Source of the DNA: a virus | Length of the DNA: 21,421 nucleotides | Reading direction: 5' to 3' (one strand) | Virus record (IMG/VR): IMGVR_UViG_3300017779_000198 | Coordinates: 1 to 21,421 of that record | Shown here: piece after piece, positions 342 to 6,235 of the stretch | How positions within the stretch are numbered: the stretch's first letter is position 1 | How the letters are laid out: the number at the start of each line of letters is the position of its first letter | Notes under the pieces: model-generated | Told to the model about the DNA's origin: nothing | Seen by the model: the letters and a program-made list of their open reading frames with translations, nothing else | The model's database searches: none | Translations under genes and position numbers: made by a program

Positions 342-512
342 ATGAATAGACAGATAAAACGTGCTATGGACAATGATGAGTCATACGCTCAAAAAGTAGA
401 AGCTAATGAAGATTACGCAAAAGCTGAGTTATCAGCTAAGCGTATCACTAGGCTTCAATACATCATGATTATGCGAGATATAGAGAAAGGTATTTTGCCG
501 TATATCGACTAG
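342..512 (+). CDS. small hypothetical early protein (56 aa)
   Basis: An ATG immediately follows the TAA of the upstream gene, with a purine-rich AGGGGGG about 6 bases before it as a possible ribosome binding site. The 56-residue product (begins MNRQIKRAMDND, ends KGILPYID) is charged and probably helical, typical of small early phage proteins that modulate host functions, but I do not recognise a family. The last base of its TAG stop codon is also the first base of hammerhead ribozyme 1, so self-cleavage would cut the message 43 bases after the stop. It is a real gene by position, start signal and tight packing; the product role is unknown. Confidence 0.6.
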   Translation: MNRQIKRAMDNDESYAQKVEANEDYAKAELSAKRITRLQYIMIMRDIEKGILPYID

Positions 513-561
513 TTACACTGATGAGACTTCTATAGTCGAAACGCCGTGAGGCGTCTGTAAC
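512..561 (+). ncRNA. hammerhead ribozyme, type I (copy 1)
   Basis: All conserved core positions are present. Stem I is GTTACA (512-517) with TGTAAC (556-561). The core CTGATGA is 518-524. Stem II is GACT (525-528) with AGTC (534-537) and a 5-base loop TCTAT. GAAA is 538-541. Stem III is A541-T554 plus CGCC/GGCG closed by GTGA (546-549). C555 is the H17 nucleotide, so cleavage is predicted between 555 and 556. The open stem is stem I, which makes it type I. The 3' product would begin with a 27-base leader ahead of the ATG at 583. Two further copies in this window show compensatory changes in stems I and II, strong evidence that the fold is selected. Confidence 0.93.
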
Positions 562-577
562 AATTAACAAAGCGAGG
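559..577 (+). repeat. conserved early leader with GCGAGG ribosome binding site (copy 1)
   Basis: The leader reads AACAATTAACAAAGCGAGG and differs at one base from the copy at 801-819. It begins in the 3' strand of hammerhead stem I. GCGAGG at 572-577 is the probable Shine-Dalgarno element, 5 bases before the ATG at 583. Related leaders precede the genes at 826, 1807 and 2630, and an orphan copy lies at 1697-1719. Confidence 0.75.
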
Positions 578-582
578 ATATT

Positions 583-753
583 ATGCCTAAAACATACAGC
601 GTACAAGTAGACATTACATTTACAAAAAACCTTTACGATATTGAGGCTTCTAGCGAGGCTGAAGCTGAGAAAATAGCTGAAGAGCAAGCTTATGACCACC
701 ATAATGGGGAAGTCATAATTGGCACTCAAGCCGTAAACGTAAGCGAGGGATAA
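583..753 (+). CDS. small hypothetical early protein (56 aa)
   Basis: The ATG lies 5 bases after GCGAGG in the leader released by hammerhead ribozyme 1. The product (begins MPKTYSVQVDIT, ends QAVNVSEG) has a beta-strand-like start followed by an acidic stretch, ASSEAEAEKIAEEQA, that looks helical. This resembles many small phage proteins with a YxxEASSEEEA pattern and no known function. It is acidic, has no cysteine and no membrane segment. The TAA stop ends at 753 and hammerhead ribozyme 2 begins at the very next base, so the gene sits between two self-cleaving elements. Reading frame probable, function unknown. Confidence 0.65.
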   Translation: MPKTYSVQVDITFTKNLYDIEASSEAEAEKIAEEQAYDHHNGEVIIGTQAVNVSEG

Positions 754-803
754 GTTATACTGACGAGCTTTTAATAAGCGAAACGCCTTCGGGCGTCTAT
801 AAC
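754..803 (+). ncRNA. hammerhead ribozyme, type I (copy 2)
   Basis: Stem I is GTTATA (754-759) with TATAAC (798-803). The core CTGACGA is 760-766, with C at the variable position 7. Stem II is GCTT (767-770) with AAGC (776-779), loop TTAAT. GAAA is 780-783. Stem III is A783-T796 plus CGCC/GGCG, capped by a TTCG tetraloop (788-791). The cleavage nucleotide is C797. Compared with copy 1, stem I has a C-G to U-A compensatory change and stem II is rewritten with pairing kept. It starts directly after the stop codon of the upstream gene and would leave a 28-base leader before the ATG at 826. Confidence 0.94.
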
Positions 804-820
804 AATTAACAATGCGAGGT
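801..820 (+). repeat. conserved early leader with GCGAGG ribosome binding site (copy 2)
   Basis: AACAATTAACAATGCGAGGT, nearly identical to 559-577. GCGAGG at 814-819 stands 6 bases before the ATG at 826. It begins in stem I of hammerhead 2 and would be the 5' end of the cleaved message. Confidence 0.75.
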
Positions 821-825
821 AAAAA

Positions 826-1167
826 ATGCAAGTAATTAAATTATATCTACCTATGAAAGACAATGATGGTCATGACTTAATGTCTTTACATAATCACTTT
901 ATAGCGGACATCAAACAAGTTAGACAAAACGGAAACGTAGCTAGAATATCGGGCTTTACTAGGTTTCAAGCTGAGGGCTTCTGGTTTGACGGTGAGCAAG
1001 CTTATAAGGATGATATTAAAATATATGAGTTTCATGTAGAAAATAAACATTTCGGGGACGCTTCCGCATATCTATGGAATCAAGCCTATCAATTATGTAA
1101 TGATATGAACCAAGAATGTATCTACTTACAGCTTAACAATGATATTGAGTTAGTGAGGTATAAATAA
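826..1167 (+). CDS. hypothetical early protein (113 aa)
   Basis: The start is set by the GCGAGG leader 6 bases upstream. The 113-residue product (begins MQVIKLYLPMKDNDG) contains several aromatic residues (GFWFDGEQAY, SAYLWNQAYQ) and a mixed alpha/beta look, soluble, with no recognised motif. Its stop codon overlaps the next ATG by one base (TAATG at 1165-1169), so it is translationally coupled to the membrane protein downstream. In a cleaved message from hammerhead 2 it would be the first of three genes before the next ribozyme at 1720. Confidence 0.75.
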   Translation: MQVIKLYLPMKDNDGHDLMSLHNHFIADIKQVRQNGNVARISGFTRFQAEGFWFDGEQAYKDDIKIYEFHVENKHFGDASAYLWNQAYQLCNDMNQECIYLQLNNDIELVRYK

Positions 1168-1466
1168 TGAGTGACGAGCTAATTATAACAATAATGGGTC
1201 ACGTCGATAACGTGTTGCTGGCTGTGGGTATCTATTACTCACTAGCTAGCATTGAGCACTACATGGACGCCTATTTTACAAACTACAAAGCGTCACCTCA
1301 GGTGTTAGCGTGCATTTCAGGATGTCTAGCTAACACGATAAGTGACGGCGCAGGCTTCCTAGTTACTGGTAGCTGGGAATGGGCTTTGTGGGTCATGCTG
1401 GGGTGTCTATCAGGTATGCTAGTTATTCCAGTGCTAGAGTATATTAACAATAAAAAAGTGAGGTAA
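1167..1466 (+). CDS. small membrane protein (99 aa, about three hydrophobic segments)
   Basis: The product has hydrophobic stretches at roughly residues 5-28, 44-66 and 68-92, and ends in the basic tail NNKKVR, so it is probably an inner-membrane protein. No lipobox is seen. The family is not recognised; small early membrane proteins in phages can act in superinfection exclusion or host takeover, but nothing here shows which. The start overlaps the upstream stop by one base. Its last codons (GTG AGG TAA) supply the GAGG ribosome binding site of the gene at 1470. It looks richer in G+C than the gene after it, in line with a mosaic early region. Confidence 0.7.
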   Translation: MSDELIITIMGHVDNVLLAVGIYYSLASIEHYMDAYFTNYKASPQVLACISGCLANTISDGAGFLVTGSWEWALWVMLGCLSGMLVIPVLEYINNKKVR

Positions 1467-1469
1467 ATT

Positions 1470-1697
1470 ATGAAATATACAGATATGGGTAAAGAAGATA
1501 TTACTAAATATTCTTATGATGAGTTATCACTAAGAATTATGAATGATGAAGATGCTTATGAGGTGATTACTAAACCAAATGAATTAGTAAAACATGTAAG
1601 AGAAAATTATATTTATACTACTAGACAAATGGAAACATTATTGACTGATTGTTGGCACGACTATCAAGAGTCAATTAAATATGTAGAATTTTATTAA
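1470..1697 (+). CDS. hypothetical early protein (75 aa)
   Basis: The ATG follows GTGAGGTAAATT, in which GAGG from the end of the previous gene serves as binding site. The 75-residue acidic product (begins MKYTDMGKEDITKY, ends YVEFY) has no recognised domain. The gene is clearly more AT-rich than its neighbour at 1167-1466, with many AAT/GAT/TAT codons, which hints at separate ancestry. It is followed directly by an orphan copy of the early leader and then hammerhead ribozyme 3. Confidence 0.65.
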   Translation: MKYTDMGKEDITKYSYDELSLRIMNDEDAYEVITKPNELVKHVRENYIYTTRQMETLLTDCWHDYQESIKYVEFY

Positions 1698-1719
1698 ACA
1701 ATAACAACGAGGTAAAACA
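1697..1719 (+). repeat. orphan early leader, direct repeat of the one after ribozyme 3
   Basis: This 23-base element starts at the last base of the previous stop codon and matches 1784-1806 at 22 of 23 positions (difference A1707 versus G1794). It carries the AACAATAACA block and the CGAGG binding site but no start codon follows; instead hammerhead ribozyme 3 begins at 1720. It looks like a leader that has lost its gene, or the left copy of a duplicated cassette boundary. Confidence 0.8.
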
Positions 1720-1782
1720 GTACTACTGACGAGGATTGAATATCCGAAACCGCCAGCCAGTAATGTGCTGGTGGTCTAGTAC
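1720..1782 (+). ncRNA. hammerhead ribozyme, type I (copy 3, extended stem III)
   Basis: Stem I is GTACTA (1720-1725) with TAGTAC (1777-1782). The core CTGACGA is 1726-1732. Stem II is GGAT (1733-1736) with ATCC (1742-1745), loop TGAAT. GAAA is 1746-1749. Stem III is longer than in the other copies: 1749-1757 pairs with 1767-1775 (nine pairs, one G-U) around a nine-base loop. The cleavage nucleotide is C1776. Stems I and II differ in sequence from copies 1 and 2 but keep full pairing. Cleavage would leave a 30-base leader before the ATG at 1807. Confidence 0.93.
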
Positions 1783-1783
1783 A

Positions 1784-1806
1784 AACAATAACAGCGAGGT
1801 AAAACA
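1784..1806 (+). repeat. conserved early leader with GCGAGG ribosome binding site (copy 3)
   Basis: Carries AACAATAACA followed by GCGAGG (1794-1799), 7 bases before the ATG at 1807. It is the right-hand member of a direct repeat flanking hammerhead 3 (left copy at 1697-1719). Confidence 0.75.
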
Positions 1807-2067
1807 ATGAAGACAGTTAAACACATAGATAAGCCGAATGTATTACGTTCAAGCTTAAAAATAAGTTTATCCGACTATTCAGCACTTAAGTTAATTGATA
1901 TCTTAGAAATTGGGGGTATTGGTGAATCTAATATCGAGTGTATTAAAGATATTCTAGGGTTAAAGTACAAGCTTTATAAAGCTGAAGACGGTAATAAAAG
2001 TGTAATCCTTGAGATGAAAAACGGTAAGACTAGAGCACTGGGTGAGTTATCACAGCGAGGTAAATAA
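1807..2067 (+). CDS. hypothetical early protein (86 aa)
   Basis: The start is set by the GCGAGG leader. The 86-residue product (begins MKTVKHIDKPNVLRS, ends ALGELSQRGK) is basic and probably mixed alpha/beta; no family is recognised. The final codons (CAG CGA GGT AAA TAA) contain the binding site for the next gene, and the stop overlaps the next ATG by one base, so the pair is translationally coupled. It is the first gene on the message released by hammerhead 3. Confidence 0.7.
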   Translation: MKTVKHIDKPNVLRSSLKISLSDYSALKLIDILEIGGIGESNIECIKDILGLKYKLYKAEDGNKSVILEMKNGKTRALGELSQRGK

Positions 2068-2519
2068 TGGTAGACGTAACAAGTCGTAAGTATCTTGAAT
2101 CGTATTTTACAGATGAGGTTGACTCACCTGAGGATATACAAAATAAGATACTAATGGTCATGAAACAAGACGGTATCATGGAGCGTAATGAAGACGGTAA
2201 GATGACTGTATTCAAGAAGCGTCCACTACTGGCTTATCTTCGTATAGCCTTTCCTAATATCAAGCCTAGTGCTATCAATAGACAGCTTAATAATCTGTTT
2301 AAGGATGACGTGCTCAAGATATGGGACAAGTACAAAACTAAGCCGTATGTCATCAAGTCTAGGCAGTATGAGTCTAGGATGAGACGTGCGACCAGCAGAG
2401 TACAACGTAGTAAGACTGATATGCTCTTTGAGATACTCATGGGAGATGACCCAAGTAAACGCATGAGATATATCACTGACTGTATTGCTAATGGGGTTAC
2501 ACCTAACTTAGATGTATAG
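2067..2519 (+). CDS. hypothetical basic early protein (150 aa)
   Basis: The ATG overlaps the previous stop (TAATG), with GCGAGG 6 bases upstream. The protein is rich in Lys/Arg, with a clear basic run (residues about 104-117, RMRRATSRVQRSK) and predicted helices throughout; a segment around residues 55-85 (LLAYLRIAFPNIKPSAINRQLNNLF) could be a helix-turn-helix-like DNA-binding unit, but that is only an impression. No family is recognised. It is the last gene before the hairpin-containing gap at 2520-2629. Confidence 0.75.
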   Translation: MVDVTSRKYLESYFTDEVDSPEDIQNKILMVMKQDGIMERNEDGKMTVFKKRPLLAYLRIAFPNIKPSAINRQLNNLFKDDVLKIWDKYKTKPYVIKSRQYESRMRRATSRVQRSKTDMLFEILMGDDPSKRMRYITDCIANGVTPNLDV

Positions 2520-2552
2520 GTAGTAACAAGTAAGTATATATAGCTAGGGGAG

Positions 2553-2591
2553 ACAGGGGTTTACACTAATATGGGTACTTTAAACACCTGT
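2553..2591. promoter_or_regulatory. long imperfect inverted repeat / possible terminator, loop holds reversed promoter-like motif
   Basis: The arms ACAGGGGTTTA (2553-2563) and TAAACACCTGT (2581-2591) pair at 10 of 11 positions, with one G-A mismatch. On the + strand it is followed by TTCCTTATTT, a weak U-rich tail, so a terminator is possible but not classic. The 17-base loop contains, on the minus strand, AAAGTACCCATAT (2569-2581), identical over 13 bases to the intergenic promoter-like repeat at 3737 and 6234. It may be an early terminator, a processing site, or a leftward promoter. Confidence 0.45.
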
Positions 2592-2601
2592 TTCCTTATT
2601 T

Positions 2602-2971: not shown

Positions 2972-3450
2972 ATATATTTATATTAGACAGACATCCACGT
3001 ACCTGTGCTCAATATCATTGCGACAAACATGTCGTCAAGATGATACTCGAGACAGCTCAGATGATGTGCACCGTACTCAATGAGGTAGGATATGAGACGC
3101 CTTACAAGTCTACTCATCCTAAACATCCATGTACGCTGTGGCTCAAGGAGTCTAGGAATAATTATTTATGGACTAGACAACTAGCTAAGGGACTCAATGC
3201 TGAGTACAAGTTACGCTATAACAAGACTGACAATCATAAGTCATGGGACGTTATAAAAAGCTTACCAGCATTACCTAAAGAGTTACCACTTAAGGACTTA
3301 ACTGACTTTCCACAAGCCATGCCTGACCAGTATAAACATACTGACCCTGTCGTAGCATATCGTACGTACTACAGACAGGACAAGCGGGACTTTGCTACGT
3401 GGAAACTAGCAACACCTATATGGTGGAATGACAACACATACACATACTAA
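2968..3450 (+). CDS. conserved phage protein of unknown function (CDKHVVKMILE motif)
   Basis: The 160-residue product begins MNIFILDRHPRTCAQYHCDK and continues with HVVKMILETAQMM. It then has a KSTHPKHPCTLW segment and ends with QAMPDQYKH, VVAYRTYYRQDKRDFATW and a Trp-rich tail. I recognise this conserved pattern (NIFILD start, CDKHVVKMILE, THxxHP, W-x-xxN, Y-R-x-YY) from marine myovirus and podovirus genomes, where it is carried as a protein of unknown function. The conserved Cys, His, Asp and Lys near the start suggest an enzyme active site, but that is inference. GGGGAG before the start supports ATG at 2968. Confidence 0.8.
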   Translation: MNIFILDRHPRTCAQYHCDKHVVKMILETAQMMCTVLNEVGYETPYKSTHPKHPCTLWLKESRNNYLWTRQLAKGLNAEYKLRYNKTDNHKSWDVIKSLPALPKELPLKDLTDFPQAMPDQYKHTDPVVAYRTYYRQDKRDFATWKLATPIWWNDNTYTY

Positions 3451-3465
3451 CAAAGGAGAATAACT

Positions 3466-3717
3466 ATGAGTGAACTAACAATAGAACAATTAAACAATGA
3501 CACACCAGCTAACAAGTCACCTGTAGGGTGGAATCCAGTAAGAGAGAGACACTACAAACAATTCTTAAGGACTCTTGACTGGCATGACTTCGGTAAGATT
3601 GACGCAGTACGCCGCCACATGTATGAGACTTGGATAACTAAGGGTGTACATCCTAATGACCTAAAGAAACCATATCATGTGGGTAAGAATGAAAAGGACT
3701 ATGGGTCTGAGTTTTAG
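3466..3717 (+). CDS. hypothetical protein (83 aa)
   Basis: It follows AAAGGAG with good spacing. The product (begins MSELTIEQLNNDT) contains a His/Trp/Arg-rich middle (RERHYKQFLRTLDWHDFGKIDAVRR, given here in parts) and ends KDYGSEF. No family recognised. It is the last gene before the RNA polymerase promoter region. Confidence 0.65.
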   Translation: MSELTIEQLNNDTPANKSPVGWNPVRERHYKQFLRTLDWHDFGKIDAVRRHMYETWITKGVHPNDLKKPYHVGKNEKDYGSEF

Positions 3718-3784: not shown

Positions 3785-6235
3785 ATGGTAGAGATATTTA
3801 AAAATATAAAAGAGTACGCTGATGAGTTAGACCATGAGGCGGAGATGATTAAGCTGGGTAAACAGCGGGTCAATAAGCGTAGGGTCTCTCATGTCCAGCG
3901 TGAAGAGGAGTCAGTGACCAGCTATGGTAAAGTCATGGTGGCTAATACCATACGACCACTGGCACAAGCCATACAGGACTATCTTGAATCTAATGCTGAC
4001 GCTAAGGGTCAGCCTGAGAAAGCTTTTATTAAGCTAAGAGAGATAGAGCCTGAGGTGTCAGCCATGATATGTGCTAAGCATGTCATCAATACTATCACTC
4101 AGCATAAGCCATTGACGGCTACGAGTATTGCATTGGGTGGTAAGATTGAGACTGAGACATCTCTTCGTAACTTTAAGAACCTAAACCCTGAGCTGTTTGA
4201 CGCAGTCAAGAATGACTTAGACAAGCGTTCATGGAACTACGCATACAAGAGACGTAAGCTAAAGGAATCAGCTAAGCGTGACAACGTGGCTATGTGGGAA
4301 GAGTGGACTACGGAAGAGAAGCTACACACAGGCATGAGACTCATTGAGTTTATGCAGTCAGCTACAGGTATGATTGAGTTTGGACTTGAGGTTATCAATC
4401 GCAAGCGTACTAAGATAATCAAGCAGACAGCTAAGACTAGAGAGTGGATACAAAATAGAAATAACTTTAATGAGCTATTGAATCCTGAGTACCTACCAAC
4501 TGTCATGCCACCTAGAAACTGGGAGACAGTCACAGGTGGTGGATACTGGACGAAGGAGTTACCTGAACTAGACTTAGTCAAACAAAAGAATAAGTTATTC
4601 AAGCGTGAGCTAGAGAACTTTGATATGCCTGAAGTATACAACGCAGTTAACCGTATGCAGTCGACTGGCTTCAGGGTTAACAAGTTTGTACTAGATGTAA
4701 TGAAGCACGCTTGGGACAATGGTATTGCTATGGGTGGTATGCCACCAATTAAGAACATGGAGATACCTAACAAGCCACATGACATTGACACTAATGAGGA
4801 AGCACGTAAGGAGTGGAAGAAACAGGCTGTCATCTGTCACACTGAGAACTCTAGGATGTTTAGTAAGAGATTACTATACGCCAAGATACTATGGGAAGCT
4901 GATAAGTTTAAAGATTATGACAACATATACTTTCCCTTGCAGTTAGACTTCAGAGGTAGAGCCTATTGTGTCCCAGCATTTCTAAACTATCAGGGAATCA
5001 ATGGTGCTAAGGCACTGTTAGATTTTTCTCATGGTAAAGAGATAACCGAAGACAACAGTGGTGGCTTTTGGTTAGCCGTACACGGTGCTAACGTGTGGGG
5101 TAATGATAAGATTACTCTCGAACAGAGAGCAGAGTGGTCTATGGACACCACCAATATGCAGATGTTTCGTCGCATAGTCCAAGACCCTATCGTCAATCGA
5201 GAATGGGAAGAAGCTGACTCGCCTTTTCAATTCCTCGCTTGGTGTAAAGAGTGGGTTGAGTTTCAAGATACAGGCTACGGCTATGTATCACACTTGCCTG
5301 TCTCGATAGACGGTAGCTGTAATGGGTTACAGTTATACTCGCTAATGTTACGTGATGAGACAGCTGGTAAGCTGGTCAATGTTGTCCCTAGTGATACACC
5401 ACAGGACATCTACCAGCTTGTCGCTGACTCAGTAATAGAGAAACTGAAACAAGATAAGCTTGAGGGCAAGCCTTATGCACACGCATGGTTAGAGTATGGA
5501 ATCAAACGTAGTACCACTAAGCGTAGCATTATGACTATATGCTATGGGTCTACGAGATACTCATGCACTGACTTTGTAGTAGAAGACTTGACCAAGCGTA
5601 AAGATAAGGGGGAAGAACACCCGTTCAAGACTGATGTATTCAAGCCAGCTATTTATTTAGCTGGAGTGATATGGGATAGCATTGGAGACAATCTGACATC
5701 AGCTCGTATGGGTATGGACTACCTACAAAAGATAGCTAAGGTTGTATCCAAAGAGCAATTACCTATACATTGGATAACACCTGTCGGCTTTCCTGTCTAT
5801 CAATCTTACCCTGAAATGAAGAGCAAGAGAGTCAAGACCATGTTACTCGGAGAGGTTATCAAACCTAGAGTAAACTATGAGACTGACAAGACAGACAAAC
5901 TACGTATGAGTAATGGTGTCGCACCTAACTTTGTACACTCACTCGACTCGGCAGCTATGATGAGGACAGTTAACATTGCATATGAAAATGGTATAAGAAA
6001 CTTTTGTAATGTGCATGATAGCTTCGGAACTACAGCGGCAGATGTAGAGATGTTGAGTAGTGCATTGAAGGAAGCATTTATTCAAACGTTTACAGAAACG
6101 GATGTACTTAAAGAGTTTAAGGAAGATGTCAAAGCACAGCTACCAGTGGAACTACATGAAGAGTTACCTGAAGAATTAGATAAGGGTAACTTGGACATTG
6201 AGAAGCTGAGAGAGTGTGACTTTTTCTTTGCATAA
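3785..6235 (+). CDS. T7-like single-subunit DNA-directed RNA polymerase
   Basis: This 816-residue protein (T7 enzyme 883) transcribes the middle and late phage genes. The catalytic set is complete: FRGRAY (389-394), PVSIDGSCNGLQ with catalytic Asp509 (T7 D537), KRSTTKRSIMTICYG with Lys579 and Tyr587 (T7 K631, Y639), APNFVHSLD (713-721) and NVHDSFGT with Asp745 (T7 D812). The C-terminus DFFFA matches the T7 foot DFAFA. In the promoter specificity loop, Arg682 matches T7 R746, but T7 N748 is replaced by Lys684, so T7 promoters should not be recognised. This agrees with the absence of T7-type promoters and the presence of AAGTACCC repeats. AAGGAG stands 5 bases before the ATG. It is shorter at the N-terminus than T7. 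Confidence 0.97.
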   Translation: MVEIFKNIKEYADELDHEAEMIKLGKQRVNKRRVSHVQREEESVTSYGKVMVANTIRPLAQAIQDYLESNADAKGQPEKAFIKLREIEPEVSAMICAKHVINTITQHKPLTATSIALGGKIETETSLRNFKNLNPELFDAVKNDLDKRSWNYAYKRRKLKESAKRDNVAMWEEWTTEEKLHTGMRLIEFMQSATGMIEFGLEVINRKRTKIIKQTAKTREWIQNRNNFNELLNPEYLPTVMPPRNWETVTGGGYWTKELPELDLVKQKNKLFKRELENFDMPEVYNAVNRMQSTGFRVNKFVLDVMKHAWDNGIAMGGMPPIKNMEIPNKPHDIDTNEEARKEWKKQAVICHTENSRMFSKRLLYAKILWEADKFKDYDNIYFPLQLDFRGRAYCVPAFLNYQGINGAKALLDFSHGKEITEDNSGGFWLAVHGANVWGNDKITLEQRAEWSMDTTNMQMFRRIVQDPIVNREWEEADSPFQFLAWCKEWVEFQDTGYGYVSHLPVSIDGSCNGLQLYSLMLRDETAGKLVNVVPSDTPQDIYQLVADSVIEKLKQDKLEGKPYAHAWLEYGIKRSTTKRSIMTICYGSTRYSCTDFVVEDLTKRKDKGEEHPFKTDVFKPAIYLAGVIWDSIGDNLTSARMGMDYLQKIAKVVSKEQLPIHWITPVGFPVYQSYPEMKSKRVKTMLLGEVIKPRVNYETDKTDKLRMSNGVAPNFVHSLDSAAMMRTVNIAYENGIRNFCNVHDSFGTTAADVEMLSSALKEAFIQTFTETDVLKEFKEDVKAQLPVELHEELPEELDKGNLDIEKLRECDFFFA

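Follow-up and report, generated by a model that had tools for sequence, protein, structure and literature searches.

Three type I hammerhead ribozymes between the early genes of a T7-like pelagiphage and their putative role in early mRNA processing

Background

Thousands of hammerhead ribozymes came to light in 2011, and their role in bacteria and phages has since been unclear. The viral DNA analysed here (the window, 21.4 kb at its full length) raises the matter, with three hammerhead-like elements lying one after another between short genes: are these elements true hammerheads, and what would they do at such positions in a phage transcript? A preliminary description made from the sequence alone had placed them in the early region of a T7-like phage, and this is supported by a match to a single-subunit RNA polymerase (RNAP) gene, 5' of which all three are located (Table 1). 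The polymerase is nearest to those of Pelagibacter phages, and its closest named record is Pelagibacter phage HTVC109P, which is classified as a Pelagivirus; the window is thus a fragment of a pelagiphage, a Pelagivirus-type member of the Autographiviridae. The host group of such T7-like pelagiphages is SAR11, an abundant ocean bacterium. The early ORFs 5' of the polymerase gene are short and mostly without an assigned function. An ORF at 2968-3450 matches Pfam Pyr_excise (pyrimidine dimer DNA glycosylase) above the curated cut-off.

Table 1. Features of the window, and type III hammerheads of related loci (L numbers; coordinates are those of the locus named)
Feature	Position	Strand	Remarks
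Two early ORFs	12-341, 342-512	+	5' of copy 1; function unassigned
Hammerhead copy 1, type I	512-561	+	stem I 512-517/556-561, 6 bp; predicted cleavage after C555
27-nt leader	556-582	+	from sequence; Shine-Dalgarno GAGG; 5' end of the next mRNA if copy 1 cuts
Early ORF, 56 aa	583-753	+	separates copies 1 and 2; function unassigned
Hammerhead copy 2, type I	754-803	+	predicted cleavage after C797
28-nt leader	798-825	+	from sequence; Shine-Dalgarno; after predicted copy 2 cleavage
Three early ORFs	826-1167, 1167-1466, 1470-1697	+	separate copies 2 and 3
Hammerhead copy 3, type I	1720-1782	+	stem III 9 bp; predicted cleavage after C1776
30-nt leader	1777-1806	+	from sequence; Shine-Dalgarno; after predicted copy 3 cleavage
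Two ORFs	1807-2067, 2067-2519	+	3' of copy 3
Hairpin with copy of putative phage RNAP promoter	2547-2594		promoter copy on minus strand, starts at 2582
T7-like single-subunit RNA polymerase	3785-6235	+	sequence comparison, 72.8% identity to HTVC109P
Type III hammerhead, L010	3541-3594		
Type III hammerhead, L014	4515-4570		
Type III hammerhead, L038	4120-4175		
Type III hammerhead, L029	5027-5081		

Results and discussion

Anatomy of the three elements

With loops in parentheses and the predicted cleavage site marked ^, copy 1 reads GUUACA-CUGAUGA-GACU(UCUAU)AGUC-GAA-ACGCC(GUGA)GGCGU-C^UGUAAC, copy 2 GUUAUA-CUGACGA-GCUU(UUAAU)AAGC-GAA-ACGCC(UUCG)GGCGU-C^UAUAAC, and copy 3 GUACUA-CUGACGA-GGAU(UGAAU)AUCC-GAA-ACCGCCAGC(..)GCUGGUGGU-C^UAGUAC. 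The catalytic core is complete in all three (C3 U4 G5 A6 N7 G8 A9, G12 A13 A14, A15.1-U16.1 and H17), and H17 corresponds to C555, C797 and C1776 in copies 1, 2 and 3, the same residues at which cleavage had been proposed in the preliminary description. Every copy has a stem I of exactly 6 bp and a stem II of 4 bp, with stem I open and stems II and III closed, which is the type I topology. As that description had also pointed out, stems I and II differ in sequence among the copies while their pairing is kept.

The first base of copy 1 is the G of the UAG stop codon (510-512) of the upstream gene, and copy 2 begins immediately after the UAA stop of the ORF at 583-753. Directly before copy 3 lies a duplicate of the ribosome-binding leader that follows it; this leader, AACAATAACARCGAGGTAAAACA, is found at both 1698-1719 and 1783-1806, as if the ribozyme or the adjoining gene had been inserted into, or deleted from, a leader. 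In thermodynamic predictions the isolated sequence of copy 1 folds as a hammerhead, appreciable fractions of copies 2 and 3 do so, and copy 3 takes this fold in all contexts tried. With 30 nt of 5' context, copy 1 is predicted to form a competing hairpin (UCGACUA/UAGUCGA) with the end of the upstream gene, leaving a predicted hammerhead fraction of ~0.03, and co-transcriptional folding or ribosome position may therefore matter; speculatively, a ribosome terminating at the upstream stop could relieve this hairpin.

Detection against chance and by covariance models

The preliminary description had looked to the Rfam covariance models for confirmation, and in this it was not borne out: none of the three copies reaches the gathering score of any Rfam hammerhead family, a score which is a curator's cut-off rather than a biochemical definition. 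The best match, RAGATH-1 (RF03152), gave 34.0 bits for copy 3 and a partial hit of 24.1 bits for copy 1, compared to a gathering score of 56.3 that is set over the full model including its upstream segment, and Hammerhead_3 scored 15.5 bits on the window. The type III elements of relatives reach 43 and 41 of the 48.5 bits required in RF00008. Because Rfam alone was insensitive, the elements were sought with a pairing descriptor, controlled by shuffled or Markov sequences, and with a covariance model from which the window was held out. The descriptor matches three times in the window versus once in 200 dinucleotide shuffles (both strands), and detects no hammerhead on the minus strand of the window. 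The covariance model was trained on 30 type I elements taken from more distant phages, excluding the window and its closest relatives (RNAP identity of at least 81%), and it detects exactly the three copies in the window, with 58.5 bits for copy 2, 57.2 for copy 1 and 56.2 for copy 3 (E-values 8e-13 to 3e-12). By both methods the elements at the positions given in Table 1 are complete type I hammerheads, as originally described. Given the strong scores of the held-out model, the Rfam models are read as insensitive to this group, and since they miss it, such arrays are probably under-reported. Free-energy z-scores calculated over 84-85 nt stretches did not distinguish copies 1 and 2 from shuffles, a result not counted against the elements because hammerheads are not exceptionally stable structures.

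Covariation was examined in these 30 distant type I elements: 480 of 480 pair cells are standard, double changes occur in 121 pair cells versus 36.7 in shuffles, and only 28-40% remain paired when the partner is slid. Since pairing is a requirement of the scan itself, searches that dropped this requirement for one stem at a time were also run. Of the 82 core/stem II/stem III matches obtained when no pairing was asked of stem I, 67 form a stem of 6-7 bp; the remaining 15, with 0-1 bp, are probably the same core in an alternative register. When stem II was the one left free, all 68 matches showed 3-5 bp. All three helices around the core are thus backed by covariation, as is characteristic of a hammerhead. 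The bases just outside stem I are also conserved (A2.7 in 66/67, A1.7 in 62/67), and loop II is usually 5 nt long and UNNAU-like, a pattern that suggests a conserved tertiary contact between loop II and stem I. A contact of this kind is needed for fast hammerhead cleavage.

Distribution among related phages

Relatives were collected as 88 loci anchored on the RNA polymerase, a partly redundant set in which near-identical contigs are counted. These loci contain 139 hammerheads, all in the sense orientation and all 5' of the phage RNAP gene, with none antisense and none in the 605 kb downstream of RNAP. One to five elements are present in 43 of the 44 loci that retain at least 2.7 kb of upstream sequence. 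By topology, 94 elements are type I, 27 are type III and 18 are type II. Named pelagiphages that carry them include HTVC109P, HTVC019P, HTVC022P, HTVC031P, HTVC168P, HTVC142P, HTVC131P, HTVC201P, HTVC021P, HTVC121P, Eistla and Ran. The same pattern came out of piecewise scans of 19 named phage records, except for one antisense match in HTVC142P, of low score (27.5) and with very large loops, which is taken as chance. The descriptor scan found no element in HTVC105P, 134P, 120P, 200P and 119P or in roseophage CRP-113, indicating that some phages of this kind can do without the system.

Most type I elements adjoin the stop codon of the gene before them (-6 to +3; 47 of the 61 cases in which a stop was identified), and a start with a Shine-Dalgarno sequence follows 3' in 70 of 80; for type III elements the corresponding figure is 27 of 28, with the start mostly 65-69 nt past the cleavage site. 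When early ORFs from 17 loci were clustered, most close relatives turned out to have a hammerhead between the families to which window ORFs 342-512 and 826-1167 belong. Additional genes, each accompanied by a hammerhead, are present in some relatives and missing from others, the window ORF 583-753 being an example, and gene boundaries with elements are kept though the adjoining genes differ. Each of the 17 mapped early regions contains a member of the ORF 2067-2519 family, and in none of these regions was a hammerhead found 3' of that member. In the window, the promoter-bearing hairpin sits after this ORF, beyond the hammerhead-bearing module.

Serial short type I hammerheads are also seen in contigs that have no RNAP match in the retrieved stretch (L187, L226, L232, L234, L246 and others in L174-L250), some of which encode GroEL, portal, terminase or DnaD-like proteins; these contigs belong to other types of phage, so the trait probably extends further. 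One hammerhead-bearing phage contig (L120, polymerase 97% identical) is binned in the MAG Verrucomicrobia bacterium TMED44, probably by a binning error. In L010, a leader starting TAGTACAACAAACAATTAACAGCGAGG (6120-6157) resembles a type I 3' product with no hammerhead in front, and is possibly a decayed copy.

A type III element at the start of the array

Type III is the first element seen in 26 of 55 element-bearing loci, a descriptive count, given the partial redundancy of the loci and the truncation of many at the 5' end. With 27 type III elements in all, this topology is nearly always first. In L038, a close relative, the type III element precedes the first early gene, and the first base of the window corresponds to L038 4216; from this alignment, the window probably misses a fourth, type III ribozyme that would lie ~40 nt before its first base. 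This probable element, just off the left end of the window, had been missed in the preliminary description. The type III elements of L010, L014 and L038 have an extra core base (CUGAAUGA), and the L029 element, in the same place, has a canonical core. In all four, stem II is 2 bp and loops I (UUGGU) and II (ACCAA) are complementary, which suggests a pseudoknot. Upstream, a sigma70-like promoter (TTGACA) is followed by ~280-350 nt of non-coding leader and then the type III element (L010 ~3160-3540, L038 ~3812-4120). The leader diverges quickly among relatives, with 57% mean identity over 7 sequences, and a conserved structured leader RNA 5' of type III was rejected because the alignment is too poor.

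Putative role in early mRNA processing and alternatives

The elements are conserved across the lineage, covary in their stems, and are restricted both to one strand and to the early gene boundaries. From the sequence it is probable that the type I hammerheads self-cleave and thereby divide the early polycistronic transcript between genes during its synthesis; catalysis, the structures of the ends and any benefit, whether in mRNA stability or in separate regulation, are what we infer from these regularities. The upstream product of each cut would end in the stem II and III hairpins of the ribozyme and carry a 2',3'-cyclic phosphate, and the downstream product would begin with a 5'-hydroxyl and an unstructured leader of 27-30 nt containing the Shine-Dalgarno sequence; such ends may stabilise the RNA or tune expression. 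Cleavage of copies 1 and 2 would release a 242-nt monocistronic RNA (556-797), and cleavage of copies 2 and 3 a 979-nt tricistronic RNA (798-1776), in addition to the flanking units. In relatives, the promoter-proximal leader would be trimmed off by the type III element ahead of the first gene. Early mRNAs with one to three genes each would result, so that the elements would act like the T7 RNase III sites but with the RNA itself as catalyst.

A different use of the same cleavage would be chiefly to set one end of particular RNAs, by freeing a non-coding leader or by producing RNAs to be ligated or circularised. The ~280-350 nt that separate promoter and type III element in relatives could be such a leader, and the ends left by two flanking cuts could be joined by an RtcB-type ligase. 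Splicing or circles were likewise raised as possibilities by Perreault et al., who found no spliced or circular products (PMC3088659). The poor alignment of the leader among relatives and the placement of the inner elements before Shine-Dalgarno leaders of changing genes also argue against this use, which we regard as improbable. The variation of the genes between elements among close relatives, and the similar serial elements in contigs of other phage types, could instead reflect exchangeable cassette boundaries or mobile-element relics that are kept for DNA recombination. This is more doubtful still: an invariant core, compensatory changes in every stem and confinement to the sense strand are RNA-level signatures, three different circular permutations are found at similar boundaries, and no repeated unit spans two ribozymes. 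A mobile-element or retrozyme origin was rejected on this last ground.

It is very unlikely that the elements are simply hairpins acting as terminators, attenuators or RNase targets, with an incidental hammerhead core. The stem III hairpins are stable and T7 does use hairpins for RNase III, but all catalytic core positions, which hairpin function does not need, are conserved in three permutations. A terminator was rejected, as the elements in the window are not followed by a U-tract. Returning to cleavage at gene boundaries, a broader proposal can be made tentatively, and we hold it to be somewhat less probable than its converse: early mRNA processing by ribozymes might follow a programme, in T7-like phages of the sea and perhaps in several marine phage types unrelated to them, whereby the choice of permutation at a boundary determines on which of the two fragments the ribozyme stays behind as a cap. 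With type III in the lead, the first mRNA would be capped at its 5' end, types I and II further inside the array would cap upstream mRNAs at their 3' ends and leave open ribosome-binding leaders downstream, and ribosomes terminating at the abutting stop codons would tune the timing of cleavage.

Comparison with known systems

T7 has an RNase III site (R0.3) before its first gene and also has sites beside its RNAP gene. Five such sites in the early mRNA of T7 yield mono- and dicistronic mRNAs (PMC4858673). The predicted pelagiphage system is similar in that an early polycistronic transcript would be cut between genes into short mRNAs, with one site ahead of the first gene, and differs in that the T7 sites are substrates of a host protein whereas the pelagiphage elements are predicted ribozymes, none of which is beside the RNAP gene. 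Short-stem three-way hammerhead junctions also lack the extended double-stranded hairpin of a T7-type RNase III site, so these elements would work like such sites without being members of that class.

The closest precedent is the report of Perreault et al. (2011) of clusters of type I-III hammerheads flanking single prophage genes or short blocks, for which processing of long phage transcripts was proposed; three tandem sets cleaved in vitro, and an Agrobacterium set also in E. coli (PMC3088659). The pelagiphage arrays likewise consist of multiple hammerheads of types I-III, close together and flanking individual phage genes. Unlike the 2011 clusters, they are a lineage-wide trait of marine phages of the T7 type, do not extend beyond the early module, usually begin with type III, and lie at stop codon/Shine-Dalgarno junctions. 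The preliminary description had proposed that the ribozymes split the early transcript, replacing or supplementing RNase III processing, and had considered a serial arrangement with this action to be notable: the anatomy would indeed split that transcript, and the boundary positions are conserved across the lineage, but any replacement of RNase III is hypothetical, and serial arrangement has the 2011 precedent. No report of pelagiphage hammerheads was found in the open-licence papers searched, which does not prove that none exists, and the novelty accordingly lies in a lineage-wide, early-confined and topology-ordered array in SAR11 T7-like phages. In haloviruses HF1 and HF2, a hammerhead variant is located just 5' of an early gene, and a mapped transcript 5' end is within 3 nt of the cleavage site (PMC3088659). 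The position immediately upstream of an early gene is shared with the pelagiphage elements, whereas the halovirus case is a single element with a variant core in an archaeal virus. RAGATH-1 is alike in its short open stem I, core and stem III; it differs in that all copies are sub-threshold and its conserved upstream segment is only loosely matched, by copy 3.

The interest of the pelagiphage system is that an ordered, conserved array occurs in cultivated, abundant ocean phages with a putative role that in T7 belongs to a host nuclease. HTVC022P carries one type I element, and RNA-seq of HTVC022P-infected cells already exists (BioProject PRJNA1253180; PMC12753301), which offers a cheap and clear test.

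Other features of the early regions

The motif TAAAGTACCCATATAAGATA, likely the promoter of the phage RNA polymerase, is repeated in the window at 2582 (minus), 3736 (plus) and 6233 (plus). The minus-strand copy lies within a hairpin, is directed back toward the early genes, and is kept in L010, L016 and L038; transcription from this copy could yield RNA antisense to the early module. The early region of one relative (L125, 1719-1789) contains an Rfam tRNA match of 58.7 bits. In Agrobacterium and Legionella, hammerheads are associated with ardA (PMC3088659), and ArdA anti-restriction genes are present in the early region of Ran EXVC014P (L049, 3673-4540).
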